A stretch of 54,935 bases of DNA from Gammaproteobacteria bacterium (GTDB lineage Bacteria > Pseudomonadota > Gammaproteobacteria > Steroidobacterales > Steroidobacteraceae): the NCBI GenBank assembly GCA_025358295.1, contig JANYJY010000011.1, positions 1 through 54,935 on the forward strand, given 5' to 3'. The translations under genes were made by a program, and so were the position numbers. Each line of letters begins with the position of its first letter. Within the stretch, counting starts at the first letter, position 1. Below the pieces are notes generated by a model. The model ran no database searches. It saw only the letters and a list, made by a program, of their open reading frames with translations, and was not told the DNA's origin. Of the stretch, positions 1,106-5,031 are shown one piece after another.

Positions 1106-1586
1106 CGTCAAGCAAGAGGTCGAGTCTGCCTCGGTCGCGATCCGACCCATGCACGAACTCGACGTCCCTGTAGTCGTCGACATCGAACGGGCGGCGTATC
1201 AATTTCCCTGGAGCGAGGGGATATTTCGCGACTGCTTGCGCGTCGGCTATGTGTGCCGTGTGGTTGAGGCCGACAGTGCCCTAGCGGGCTACGGCATCAT
1301 GTCCGTTGGGGCGGGCGAAGCGCATATATTGAACGTCTGCATCGCCGATGAGTATCGCGGACGCGGCCTGGCTCGCAGGGTGCTTGTGTATCTTTTGGAG
1401 CGGGCACGTGCGTCTGGGATGCATGAGGCCTTTCTCGAAGTAAGGCCCTCCAACACGGCAGCCGCACATCTCTACAAGTCCATGGGCTTCGAGCAAGTGG
1501 GCGTGCGACGCGGCTACTATCAGGCCGCGGCGGGCCGCGAGGACGCCGCGGTTTTGCGGCGGCTGCTGTTGCCGGATGCTAAATAG
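1098..1586 (+). CDS. rimI: Ribosomal-protein-alanine N-acetyltransferase
   Basis: A GNAT-fold protein of 162 residues with the acetyl-CoA loop in EYRGRGLARRVL (pattern RGxGxA), followed by LEVRPSNTAAAHLYKSMGF, the C-terminal signature of RimI. RimI acetylates the N-terminal alanine of ribosomal protein S18, and in many bacteria it lies near tsaB. The chosen start is GTG at 1098, which overlaps the end of the glycosylase gene by 8 bases. The frame also stays open back to a TTG at 1077, and an ATG at 1149 would give a shorter product that still keeps the fold. The overlap with the upstream gene favours GTG 1098. The gene closes the short run of overlapping housekeeping genes at the left edge. 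Confidence 0.85.
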   Translation: MSSVKQEVESASVAIRPMHELDVPVVVDIERAAYQFPWSEGIFRDCLRVGYVCRVVEADSALAGYGIMSVGAGEAHILNVCIADEYRGRGLARRVLVYLLERARASGMHEAFLEVRPSNTAAAHLYKSMGFEQVGVRRGYYQAAAGREDAAVLRRLLLPDAK

Positions 1587-1690
1587 AACCGAGGGGTTCA
1601 TTGTTGCGCAGTCGTTGCGATAACTTGCGACATCGGCGGCGAGGCGTGTTTTCCGAGCCTTCGACAATCGCAGATTGAAATTTCGAAAGT

Positions 1691-1715
1691 AGGCCGGGGG
1701 GCGACGCCCCTGCCT
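1691..1715. terminator. GC-rich hairpin between rimI and the Fic gene
   Basis: AGGC (1691-1694) pairs with GCCT (1712-1715), and GGGGC pairs with GCCCC inside it around a GAC loop. The hairpin covers the Fic stop codon and lies between two converging genes, so it could end transcription from either side. There is no long T-run, so this is a structure-based guess. A smaller GAACC/GGTTC hairpin lies just after rimI at 1588-1601. Confidence 0.4.
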
Positions 1716-3243
1716 AGTCTTCCTGGGAGTGACTTACGAGTTCGCTTAGCAGTCTAGCGAAGGGCCTGATGTCCTGCCTGACGCTCGCGGATTCGAGCGC
1801 TGCCATATAGTCGTCCCGACGATCTAATGGGACAATCGTCCACGGATAGCCGCCGGATGCCAGCATGACGTTCATGAGGAAGCGAGCCATGCGTCCGTTG
1901 CCATCGAAATACGGATGTATGTAAACGAACATGAAATGCCCCAAGACCGCGCGGACAGCCGGTCCGGTCTCCGACTGGAGCAACTCGAAGAAGGCGGGGA
2001 CGAGGTCTCTCACGGCTTCATAGCTTGGCGGGACGTGCATCGACCTGCGAATGAAGACGGGACCGTTGCGGTAGCCCGCTAGGTCGGCGGGCTGGAGAAT
2101 GCCCGCCGTCACGCTTGGTCCAAATAGCTCCCGATACCATTCGCCATGGTCGGCATTCGCAACGATTCCTGCGTTCTGGTTTGCGAGCACTTTCTCGACG
2201 CTGGCCTTCACGGCCTGGAACGCCTGCCAGTAGCCGCGCGCGGCGAGTGCGTTTTTGTTCTCGCGGTCGTTCTCGTCGTTGTCGGGATTCCAGTTGCCGC
2301 AGCGCACCCGTTCGATCAGGGCGGCGCTCACGCGGTAGCCTTCGATTGAGAGCGAGTTATAGGCGTCGTCGATATAGATTCCATCGACCTGATGCAAATA
2401 GGCGCGCCTGTCGGTCGGTATGCCCGGCGCGGCGGGGAAGTGTTGGAGGACGTCTCCCCGCATCGTTGCCCACATCATCCGCATACGGGTCACGTAGGGA
2501 GAGGGCTCACGGGCGCTGAAAGTGATCGAGGTTTCGTCTGTGAAAGGATCGGATTCCTGGACCAGATAGCCCGCCGTCCGCATGGTCGCCAGAATGTCAT
2601 CGGCGATCCTTACCCTGCCGATATTGCGGAATGCTCCCGCCAGCCGTCCCGCAATCTTGCTGTGACCGCCGGAGAGCAGCCCTGAGAGGACTTCGGAAGC
2701 GTCGGGAATCATCGCGAGGGCGGCGCGCGTCGTTACAGGGCGGACCGCAAATTCGCCGGGACCGCAGGCGATCAGGGCGGTAGGAAGTTTCATCACGCGA
2801 AGGTCGTGCTTAATCTCGGTATCGGCTTTGGCGGGAAGCTCCAGGCGCACGTCGAATATGGACGTTTCGTAGAGGAGGCCGGTTGGCTTGTTACCTCCTT
2901 TTGGAGAGCGGACGAGCAGCTGGCGGGGAACAGTCCAGTCTCCGGAATGGAGACTGATGGATTGCTCCGGACTGAGACACCATTCGTCCCCGAAGCGGGT
3001 ATTGAGATAGTCTGCGCAGAAACCCCAGAATGACGCGTACCAGGCCGTGCTTTCGCCCGCCGTTTCGTCTGAGCGAGAAGGGACATACCAGCCCTTCATG
3101 ACTTCCGCAAGGAAGCCATTCTTGACCAGACGCTCGCGGTGAATGCGAGTAAGGTCGCTGGCGCGAATAGCAGCCTTACCCTTGTCCTGGAGTGCCTTCA
3201 GGAAGGATAGGGAGTTCGCGAGATTGTCAGACGGCGAGGCCAT
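1714..3243 (-). CDS. Fic-family protein with AbiEi-like DNA-binding N-terminal region
   Basis: A protein of 509 residues. The first roughly 60 residues (ASDLTRIHRERLVKNGFLAE, then KGWYVPS) resemble the winged-helix 'antitoxin' domain of the AbiEi group. Residues about 70-260 form a conserved middle region. The C-terminal half is a Fic domain with the catalytic motif HPYFDGNGRMAR (His443, Asp447, Arg451, Arg454), which transfers AMP or a related group from a nucleotide to a target protein. An inhibitory helix motif of the (S/T)xxxE(G/N) type is present as SLSIEG (Ser297, Glu301), so the enzyme is probably held inactive in cis (class II). No separate toxin or antitoxin gene is adjacent. The gene sits alone between rimI and prfC, with AT-rich DNA upstream, and looks like a horizontally acquired single-gene cargo. 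The target protein is unknown. Confidence 0.9.
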   Translation of the reverse strand: MASPSDNLANSLSFLKALQDKGKAAIRASDLTRIHRERLVKNGFLAEVMKGWYVPSRSDETAGESTAWYASFWGFCADYLNTRFGDEWCLSPEQSISLHSGDWTVPRQLLVRSPKGGNKPTGLLYETSIFDVRLELPAKADTEIKHDLRVMKLPTALIACGPGEFAVRPVTTRAALAMIPDASEVLSGLLSGGHSKIAGRLAGAFRNIGRVRIADDILATMRTAGYLVQESDPFTDETSITFSAREPSPYVTRMRMMWATMRGDVLQHFPAAPGIPTDRRAYLHQVDGIYIDDAYNSLSIEGYRVSAALIERVRCGNWNPDNDENDRENKNALAARGYWQAFQAVKASVEKVLANQNAGIVANADHGEWYRELFGPSVTAGILQPADLAGYRNGPVFIRRSMHVPPSYEAVRDLVPAFFELLQSETGPAVRAVLGHFMFVYIHPYFDGNGRMARFLMNVMLASGGYPWTIVPLDRRDDYMAALESASVRQDIRPFARLLSELVSHSQED

Positions 3244-3244
3244 G

Positions 3245-3360
3245 TAACCTATATCTCATTTATAGGTTATTGAGTCAATCAGTTTTTAGGTTATTAAGAA
3301 AACTCTAATTTAGGTTATAATGCTAATCAGTCTCAAGGTTATGGCGTTTGGAGTAACCAA
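3245..3360. promoter_or_regulatory. Array of 24-bp-spaced TAGGTTA operator-like repeats
   Basis: The core TAGGTTA occurs at 3263-3269, 3287-3293 and 3311-3317, with the near copy AAGGTTA at 3335-3341. The step is exactly 24 bp each time. Copies one and three also share AATCAGT at the same offset. An inverted copy TAACCTA lies at 3245-3251, right in front of the Fic start codon, and an inverted half-site TAACC lies at 3354-3358. The array fills the gap between the divergent Fic gene and prfC. Exact spacing and flanking inverted sites point to cooperative binding by a regulator. The DNA-binding N-terminus of the Fic protein is the obvious candidate, by analogy with AbiEi autoregulation; that link is inference. 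Confidence 0.75.
3294..3321 (+). promoter_or_regulatory. Candidate promoter of prfC inside the repeat array
   Basis: TATAAT at 3316-3321 is a perfect -10 box, and TTAAGA at 3294-3299 matches four of six -35 bases with a 16-bp spacer. The -10 overlaps the third TAGGTTA repeat, so a protein bound to the array would block it. Transcription would start near 3328 and give a leader of about 110 bases before prfC. Confidence 0.5.
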
Positions 3361-3399
3361 TTCGCCACTCCGCAGCAAAATAAAGGCAGCTTCCAATTT

Positions 3400-3419
3400 T
3401 TGTACAAAATGTTGTACAA
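3400..3419. repeat. Two TTGTACAA palindromes in the prfC leader
   Basis: The perfect 8-bp palindrome TTGTACAA occurs at 3400-3407 and again at 3412-3419, 12 bp apart, between the repeat array and the TTG start of prfC. It could be a second operator or an RNA element in the leader. No regulator is identified. Confidence 0.55.
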
Positions 3420-3438
3420 ACTCAATTAGGGCAGAATT

Positions 3439-5031
3439 TTGAGTAACGATATTTCCTTTGAAATCAACAAGCGACGCACCTTTGCCATCATCTCCCACCC
3501 CGACGCGGGCAAGACCACGCTGACCGAGAAGCTGCTGTTGTTCGGCGGTGCGATTCAAATGGCCGGGACGGTTAAGGGTCGCAAGGCAACCCGTCATGCG
3601 ACCTCGGACTGGATGCGCTTGGAGCAACAGCGCGGCATTTCCATCACCTCCTCGGTGATGCAGTTTCCTTATGCGGATTGCGTCGTCAATCTGCTCGATA
3701 CGCCGGGCCACGAGGATTTCTCCGAAGACACCTACCGGACATTGACCGCGGTCGACTCGGCCCTGATGGTCATCGACTGCGCCAAGGGGGTCGAGGAGCG
3801 GACCATCAAGCTCATGGATGTCTGCCGACTGCGCGACACGCCCATCATGACCTTCGTCAACAAGCTCGATCGCGACGGTCGGGCGCCCATCGAGCTGCTC
3901 GACGAGATCGAAAGCGTCTTGAAAATCCAATGTGCGCCCATCACCTGGCCGATCGGCATGGGGCGCGATCTGCTCGGCGTCTATCATCTGCTGGAAGACA
4001 GAATTTACGTCTATGTTGCCGTGGAGAAGGGCCGCGTAGGAACCCACGAGACCATCGACGGCATCGATAGTGCCGAGGCGCGCGAATTTCTAGGGACGAG
4101 GTACCGGGCCTTCATGGATGAAGTGGAACTGGTCCGCGGAGCCAGTCCGCGCTTCGATTTGCAGCTATATCGAGCTGCAAAGCAGACGCCGGTGTTTTTC
4201 GGCTCGGCCGTCAATAATTTTGGAGTCCGAGAGCTGTTGACGGCCTTCGTCGACCATTCTCCGGGTCCGTTGCCGCGCGCGACGTTGCAACGCCAAGTCG
4301 TCGCGAGCGAGCCGAAGCTCACGGGGTTCGTTTTCAAGATTCAAGCCAACATGGATCCCGGGCATCGCGATCGTATCGCCTTCATGCGTTTATGTTCGGG
4401 ACGCTATGCACGCGGCATGCGCATGCATCATGTGCGCCTCGACAAAGAGGTCCGCATCGCCGACGCGTTGACCTTTTTGGCATCCGACCGCAGCCAGGCG
4501 GAGGAGGCCTATGCCGGCGACATCATCGGCCTGCACAATCATGGAACCATCAATATCGGCGATACATTCACCGAAGGCGAGGATCTGACCTTTACAGGTG
4601 TGCCGAATTTCGCGCCGGAGATGTTCCGCCGCGCCGTTCTGAAGGATCCGCTGCGAATGAAGGCATTGCAGAAGGGTTTGTCGCAGCTATGCGAGGAGGG
4701 TGCCACTCAGTTGTTCAAGCCGTTGCGCAACAACGATTTGATTCTCGGCGCCATCGGTCAGCTGCAATTCGAAGTCGTCGCTTTTCGCTTGCAGGACGAA
4801 TACAGCGTGCAGTGCGTGTTCGAACCCATCAATGTGGCCATGGCGCGCTGGGTGAACCTTGCCGATGAGAAGCGGCTCAGAGAGTTTCGCGAAAAGGCCT
4901 ACGACAATCTCGCCATCGATCACACCGGCGGGCTGGTGTACCTTGCGCCGACGCGGGTCAATCTGGGGCTCACCGAGGAGCGCTGGCCGGAAATCGAATT
5001 TCTCAAGACGCGCGAGAATCTGGCGGCCTAG
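3439..5031 (+). CDS. prfC: Peptide chain release factor 3
   Basis: A GTPase of 530 residues that recycles RF1 and RF2 from the ribosome after termination. The translational-GTPase motifs are clear: G1 [13 protein letters not shown], the switch region [11 protein letters not shown]3 [18 protein letters not shown] and G4 NKLDRDGR. Domain II and the RF3 C-terminal domain follow, and the length matches the family. The start is TTG at 3439, which gives [20 protein letters not shown] and aligns with the usual N-terminus; no ATG is available nearby. The Shine-Dalgarno sequence is weak (AGGGCAG). The last 29 bases overlap the 3' end of the opposing tgpA gene. The promoter region is shared with the Fic gene's operator array, which is unusual for prfC. 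Confidence 0.97.

Follow-up and report, generated by a model that had tools for sequence, protein, structure and literature searches.

What does a row of near-identical 24-bp repeats do in front of a solitary gene for a Fic enzyme? The question is raised by a 54,935-bp stretch of contig JANYJY010000011.1 (GenBank assembly GCA_025358295.1, a gammaproteobacterium of the family Steroidobacteraceae), referred to below as the window, in which such a row lies upstream of a Fic gene, fic. A first-pass annotation of the window had read the row as an operator array and proposed that a single polypeptide serves as operator-binding repressor, inhibitory helix and Fic enzyme. Computation finds usually three to five head-to-tail boxes of 24 bp (some 23 bp) before homologous fic genes, often over promoter-like elements. 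From sequence comparison, we put a probability of about 85% on the array being the operator of fic, with a one-protein autorepressor and Fic enzyme acting on head-to-tail boxes.

The array in the window

On the forward strand, TAGGTTA is found at 3263, 3287 and 3311 and AAGGTTA at 3335, the step being exactly 24 bp, as first reported. Since fic is encoded on the minus strand, the copies read TAACCT(A/T) in its direction; TAACCTT is followed by three TAACCTA at 24-bp steps, and the last copy ends 19 bp before the fic start. The region is AT-rich (~40% GC, ~60% in the surroundings). All three occurrences of TAGGTTAT in the window lie within the array, with 0.18 expected and none of 100 shuffles reaching three. 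Throughout the 4.02-Mb source genome, the pair AWAACCTA-N16-AWAACCTA is unique to the array (two overlapping matches). With up to two mismatches allowed, TAACCTA-N17-TAACCTA matches five times in the whole genome, three times in the array; the two remaining matches are at chance level, as a reversed-pattern control gives 23. A wider regulon using the same paired site in this genome was rejected by these pair searches. Chance repeats were rejected by the window shuffles, the genome pair search and the lag profile and array score of the family given below.

The array is a trait of the protein family

Homologues were searched for in 369 genomes of the class at E 1e-20 (34 positive), at E 1e-60 in 398 genomes of the phylum (14 positive) and in other groups (8 of 297, 6 of 20, 10 of 289 and 4 of 78), and in the class of an Algoriphagus genome (20 of 395). 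Further sources were 65 named genome contigs, one viral contig and plasmids (202 records matched, 76 covering at least 80%). With one weak phage record and one viral contig, phage cargo was rejected as an explanation. The first set held 114 loci (L numbers below) with an N-terminal match, from which L012 and L051 (no start), L030 (truncated) and L103 and L120 (short upstream region) were dropped; a 95% filter reduced the remaining 109 to 96, and seven plasmid loci were added unfiltered to give 103. A first new set of 23 loci was reduced to 19 by removing L144 (no start), L145 (truncated) and L137 and L140 (redundant). A second new set of 22 lost L186 and L187 (no N-terminal match), leaving 20 that include L160 and L162, fetched for the question of genomes with two copies.

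The proposal that the same spacing precedes homologous Fic genes was borne out for most homologues. For 76 non-redundant homologues, the upstream self-identity shows a mean excess of +0.207 at lag 24 and +0.156 at lag 48, with all remaining lags from 10 to 59 within +/-0.03; 91% of the 76 exceed +0.1 at lag 24. An array caller that scores the flanks and the agreement between copies, at a threshold of 20 set after the scores were seen (shuffles reach at most 15.4), called arrays in 105 of 122 non-redundant homologues, in 0 of 366 dinucleotide shuffles and in 0 of 115 control stretches 250-450 bp upstream. Because the flank profile had been trained on 76 of the 122, the results for the new sets, 13 of 19 and 13 of 20, are the fairer figures. 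Of the 17 misses, six have their best lag at 23 (L031, L075, L102, L108, L124 and L147), three show no clear winner between 23 and 24 bp (L088, L125 and L152), and lag 24 is best in the other eight. Arrays of period 23 were recognized below the threshold in L031, L102, L108 and L124, likewise in L160 from the second new set, and strong 24-bp repeats with different flanks fell below it in L151, L175 and L184.

By phylum, arrays were called in 27/28 loci of Pseudomonadota, 6/6 of Thermodesulfobacteriota, 6/8 of Bacteroidota, 3/3 of Melainabacteria, 1/2 of Acidobacteriota, 1/1 of Myxococcota, 1/1 of Bacillota and 60/73 loci without a phylum name. Most of the 105 arrays hold four units (58), followed by three (25), five (17), six (3) and two (2).

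Two details of the first-pass annotation fared less well. It had pointed to inverted half-sites flanking the array; these are present as letters in the window, where the 9 bp of 3245-3253 match 3261-3269 in inverted orientation and 3354-3358 gives an inverted match of only 5 bp. Conserved inverted half-sites were nevertheless rejected: only 6 of the 105 arrays, the window included, show a reversed core no farther than 60 bp from the start, and for at least some of the other five it seems to come from palindromic sequence of the array. The inverted repeat at 3245-3269, located at the fic start, could give an RNA hairpin over the ribosome-binding region, which is not general in homologues. Secondly, the 24-bp step, which makes 2.29 turns at 10.5 bp per turn, had been read as a helical spacing suited to cooperative filaments or to dimers in a chain. 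With a step of 23 bp in some relatives, a constant helical phase is apparently unnecessary, and it was rejected as the reason for 24 bp. A length of 23-24 bp is about that reported for one AbiEi-type box (PMC3985639, PMC7319586).

Residues of the protein covary with bases of the unit

The consensus of the unit is tACAACAtAATAAcCTAaAAATgg. Across the 105 unit consensuses C6 is invariant (entropy 0), and A10 and A12 are nearly so (0.24 and 0.22). Each unit consists of a near-constant half and a word at positions 13-19, which varies among homologues and recurs within each array; words include ACCTA, AGCTA, AGCGA, AACTA, AACTTGT, TACGTGT and CAATAGC.

Bases of the unit covary with residues of the encoded protein, namely G14 with R117, C14 with K119, A14 with N119, C15 with D/E131 and, more loosely, C3 with R229. 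The pair of residue 117 and base 14 ranks at the top of 12,144 residue-base pairs. All four residues sit outside the winged helix of the N-terminal half. L008 and L117, at 83% identity, have R and Q at residue 117 and G and A at base 14, respectively. Among pairs more than 60% identical with a different base 14, the residue class differs in 746 of 748, and among pairs more than 65% identical with the same base it differs in 1 of 229 (the pairs are not independent in either count).

To separate covariation from shared ancestry, contrasts sharing no branch were taken on a tree of the Fic domain only (103 rows, all branches of the best tree). For R117/G14, 13 contrasts change in the same direction, none in the opposite one and three are without a difference. 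The others give same:opposite ratios of 9:0 of 15 (K119/C14), 8:0 of 12 (N119/A14), 10.6:0 of 15 (R229/C3), 10.7:0.8 of 26 (K50/A9) and 4.3:0 of 5 for residue 131/C15, the last not significant. Out of 1,842 residue splits, R117 ranks first for G14 with a score of 13.0, compared to 6.0 for the best other column, and R229 ranks first for C3 (10.7 vs 7.1).

The base-14 rule was set down before the first new homologues were fetched, and the rules for the second set likewise. Ten of the 13 arrays in the first new set were covered by the rule, and all ten bases were called correctly (8 A, 1 C, 1 G). In the second, mainly from Bacteroidota and also with 13 arrays, base 14 was correct in 2/2 with 11 arrays outside the rule, and base 3 in 12/13, a weak test because C3 is common. 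S or Y at residue 119 often accompanies C14 in Bacteroidota. The code is good for clear arrays within the reach of the rule and incomplete in Bacteroidota. Because word and protein residues coevolve, we infer that the Fic protein binds the array.

The protein joins an AbiEi-like half to a class II Fic enzyme

Class II Fic enzymes, which transfer AMP to a protein target, have an active site of the HxFx(D/E)GNGRxxR type and an inhibitory (S/T)xxxE(G/N) helix that precedes the Fic core. The C-terminal part of the window protein matches Pfam PF02661 (Fic) at residues 391-461 with 46.8 bits (cut-off 24). Two alignments were used, one of the window protein with 66 of 93 candidates and one with 49. 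Across the 67 aligned homologues of the former, H443, P444, D447-R451 and R454 of the HPxxDGNGRxxR motif are invariant, as are all residues S297-L-S-I-E301 of the inhibitory motif, whose G302 is nearly so. The AlphaFold 2 (AF2) model shows a helix at residues 290-300.

AF2 models reached a mean predicted local distance difference test (pLDDT) score of 90.6 for the whole protein and 93.2 for residues 1-245. A fold search with the latter returned AbiEi (6y8q_A, E 8e-5) and Rv2827c (1zel_A, E 4e-4) as best folds in the PDB, both at probability 1.00, with 13-15% identity and TM (template modelling) scores by query of 0.38 and 0.54. The next weaker folds were the nucleotidyltransferases 4ok0 and 4o8s, which fits the comparison of the AbiEi C-terminal domain with that fold. 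Sequence searches with the N-terminal half found no convincing family in Pfam, the window protein being without any AbiEi family match; AbiEi_4 (E 0.045) and AbiEi_3_N (E 0.065) each appeared in one of 50 family members searched. Likewise, a sequence-profile search of the PDB gave no significant relative, and nothing in a viral fold library matched at E 0.001 or below. In the models, residues 1-245 fold like AbiEi and Rv2827c, as the AbiEi-like region proposed at first would have it, and the remainder is a class II Fic enzyme; residues 117-119 form a hairpin flanked by the strands 108-113 and 119-122. Besides one full copy of the protein, the source genome contains a single weak match to the Fic part.

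Predicted promoters in the arrays and a proposed self-repression

In 38 of the 105 arrays, the -35 element of the best sigma-70-like promoter begins at unit position 2 (next register, 19 arrays). For 33 of the 38, a 17-bp spacer places the -10 element at the start of the next unit, and two to four units lie downstream. Hexamer frequencies were the basis of this scoring and of that of the sites toward prfC. As the unit consensus itself resembles promoter hexamers, this register is support, not proof.

Very probably, to judge from these comparisons, the protein switches off its own gene through the boxes of the array. Each AbiEi-like N-terminal half would bind one box, one monomer per box, with the conserved winged helix reading the constant half. 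The word would be read by the hairpin that carries residues 117 and 119 together with the strand that contains residue 131, an arginine facing the guanine at base 14, and base 3 by the segment at residue 229, where R goes with C3, that is, a G on the other strand. Filled boxes would cover the promoter of the gene itself and block RNA polymerase, and the resulting self-repression may keep a potentially harmful Fic enzyme scarce, the built-in inhibitory helix being a second brake. On this model a partner antitoxin would be unnecessary. Computation gives good support to a single polypeptide that binds the operator, carries the inhibitory helix and is the Fic enzyme, through the arrays, the covariation, the tests on new sequences, the fold, the invariant Fic motifs, the promoter-like elements in register with the array and the lack of a conserved partner gene.

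Several results weigh against this reading. The caller took its flank profile from 76 of the homologues, and 26 of 39 new ones pass. If only strongly supported branches are kept (earlier tree, 90 rows), 4-5 contrasts per trait are left, none opposed and none significant. The base-14 rule is partial, with 16/92, 3/13 and 11/13 arrays outside it, and of six sub-threshold new homologues with a base-14 prediction, L133 and L138 agree and L149, L183, L184 and L185, in which the register is unsure, disagree. One of four base-15 predictions in the second new set failed. Base 3 is loose: C3 is absent in 5 of 71 R229 rows, and 4 of the 10 closest pairs split into C and not-C although both carry R229. 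Finally, the fic promoter of the window itself is weak, and no strong one lies in the family register; the clearer site there, TTAAGA-16-TATAAT, is directed at prfC.

Alternative explanations

A more far-reaching proposal, which we regard as speculative and rather unlikely, is that the operator array itself is the antitoxin. The box-bound protein would be enzymatically inactive, and its private word would let each mobile fic locus tame none but its own kind. If so, the enzyme would be set free whenever the array is lost, damaged or competed for, making the locus a one-protein addiction system or an alarm for DNA integrity, and words would diversify since loci with the same word in one cell would repress or exclude each other, like compatibility groups. 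Where two copies share a cell, the words differ in three of four cases: AACCTAT (L022) and AACTGAG (L160) in genome G231, ACCTA (L120) and AGCGA (L122) in G1013, and an irregular ACxxGGT-like word (L171) and ACCGAAT (L188, two units) in G1287; both copies on the Variovorax RA8 plasmid have CCTAGC. Four cases are too few to show that co-resident copies avoid each other's word.

The array might instead serve mainly the divergent prfC-like gene (RF3) next to fic, or both genes, which appears very improbable. Such a gene adjoins fic in five loci of different organisms, the window (3244-5031), L004, L032, L040 and L091, and a promoter-like site toward it lies inside the array in the window, in L004 and, weaker, in L032. 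However, only 5 of 113 upstream flanks carry prfC there, whereas arrays are general; moreover, the best site of L040 is outside the array and that of L091 is poor. The adjacency itself may reflect a recurrent insertion site or joint control.

It is slightly less probable still that a different, host-encoded regulator binds the boxes and that shared ancestry alone links them to the Fic residues. Related proteins do carry related words, and base-14 labels cluster on the tree (22 changes vs 41.1 shuffled). Yet 22 changes are needed, and the contrasts free of shared branches agree 13:0. The strongest residue-base pairs fall in the AbiEi-like half and are chemically sensible, and the arrays travel with the gene on plasmids and through several phyla, which makes one host factor unlikely.

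In the least probable alternative the repeats would act once transcribed, as a tandem-repeat leader RNA to which the protein binds, as in type III toxin-antitoxin systems, where a structured repeat RNA and a terminator precede the toxin gene. In its favour, tandem repeats stand immediately before a toxin-like gene, the 38 arrays with an in-register promoter have units downstream of it, and the leader of the window folds a little more stably than shuffles do (z -2.0; 8/200 as good). An RNA antitoxin was rejected: the window has no Rfam match and no terminator-like site in 3100-3600, its hairpin stems from the non-conserved inverted copy, predicted promoters lie inside the arrays, R229/C3 suggests a G on the other strand and hence duplex DNA, and the N-terminal fold is the DNA-binding AbiEi fold.

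Neighbouring genes and further features

In the window, fic lies between an open reading frame (ORF) that we take to be rimI-like and the prfC-like GTPase gene. Among the eight largest neighbour clusters from 113 upstream and 112 downstream flanks, no partner gene recurs except the prfC-like one; the other large clusters are the same stretch in other frames or comprise two loci each. A partner gene, including an adjacent nucleotidyltransferase toxin of the AbiE type, was rejected on these clusters. On an Aminobacter plasmid (L142), two annotated Fic family genes adjoin (104-1225 and 1501-3039), of which just the second has the full length of the family. Shortly before the prfC start, a second and unrelated inverted repeat, TTTGTACAA/TTGTACAAA at 3399-3420 with 9-bp arms 4 bp apart, looks like a separate operator.

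Table 1. Features of the fic locus, in positions of the window
Feature	Position	Strand	Basis
fic, 509 residues: AbiEi-like N-terminal half (~1-245) and class II Fic enzyme	1714..3243	-	ORF, Pfam, structure models, fold search
Fic active-site motif HPYFDGNGRMAR, residues 443-454	1882..1917	-	67-homologue alignment
Inhibitory motif S297-L-S-I-E301-G302	2338..2355	-	67-homologue alignment
Codon 229 (Q); covaries with unit base 3	2557..2559	-	covariation
Codon 131 (D); covaries with unit base 15	2851..2853	-	covariation
Codons 117-119 (G-N-K), hairpin between two strands; covaries with unit base 14	2887..2895	-	covariation and models
Operator unit 4 (predicted; nearest start; core ACCTATA)	3256..3279	-	array call of window upstream region
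Operator unit 3 (predicted; core ACCTAAA)	3280..3303	-	array call of window upstream region
Promoter-like TTAAGA-16-TATAAT pointing to prfC, within array	3294..3321	+	consensus match only
Operator unit 2 (predicted; core ACCTAAA)	3304..3327	-	array call of window upstream region
Operator unit 1 (predicted; farthest from start; core ACCTTGA)	3328..3351	-	array call of window upstream region, row L001

Comparison with known systems

Self-repressing Fic proteins (CccR) and autorepressors of the AbiEi type are each already known. What the present family would add is a residue-to-base code spread across separate parts of an AbiEi-like module, which makes DNA recognition by this fold testable through single-residue and single-base exchanges and the operator word predictable from the protein for part of the family. 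It also prompts one to ask why an enzyme that stands alone and is often carried on plasmids keeps altering its operator word. Neither the fusion, nor rows of head-to-tail 24-bp boxes, nor a residue-to-base code were found in the literature search, whose coverage left most subscription journals outside.

On the enzyme side, the protein resembles SoFic and FICD in the PDB in its Fic core and class II inhibitory motif; these matches span residues 367-502 only, with no AbiEi-like half matched. The PADLOC models PDC-S24 (E 1.1e-16, residues 389-488) and SoFic (E 2.2e-18, residues 290-504) likewise cover the Fic part only, and the name PDC-S24 was not found in the literature searched. CccR of Yersinia pseudotuberculosis is reported to be a class II Fic protein with a DNA-binding domain that represses its own promoter (PMC9755527). 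It is SoFic-like, with the Fic domain first and the helix-turn-helix last, and uses two inverted 10-bp repeats 26 bp apart (PMC9755527). The present protein differs from CccR on both points: its DNA-binding half precedes the Fic domain, shows the AbiEi fold and goes with direct repeats.

On the operator side, the likeness is to AbiEi and Rv2827c, antitoxins of the type IV AbiE toxin-antitoxin family, which share the winged helix, strands and helix bundle of the DNA-binding half. AbiEi of Streptococcus agalactiae is described with 23-bp boxes over its own promoter; one monomer per box is proposed, its winged helix contacting part of the box and its C-terminal domain the remainder (PMC3985639); for the Rv2827c promoter four boxes are given (PMC7319586). 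The Fic array units, of 24 bp and in some relatives 23 bp, fit an AbiE-type box in their length, in their division into constant half and word, and in covarying residues that lie outside the winged helix. AbiEi and Rv2827c are, in the same accounts, separate antitoxins beside a nucleotidyltransferase toxin gene and have inverted boxes, whereas here the AbiEi-like half is fused to the Fic enzyme, with direct head-to-tail boxes, private words and no conserved partner gene.
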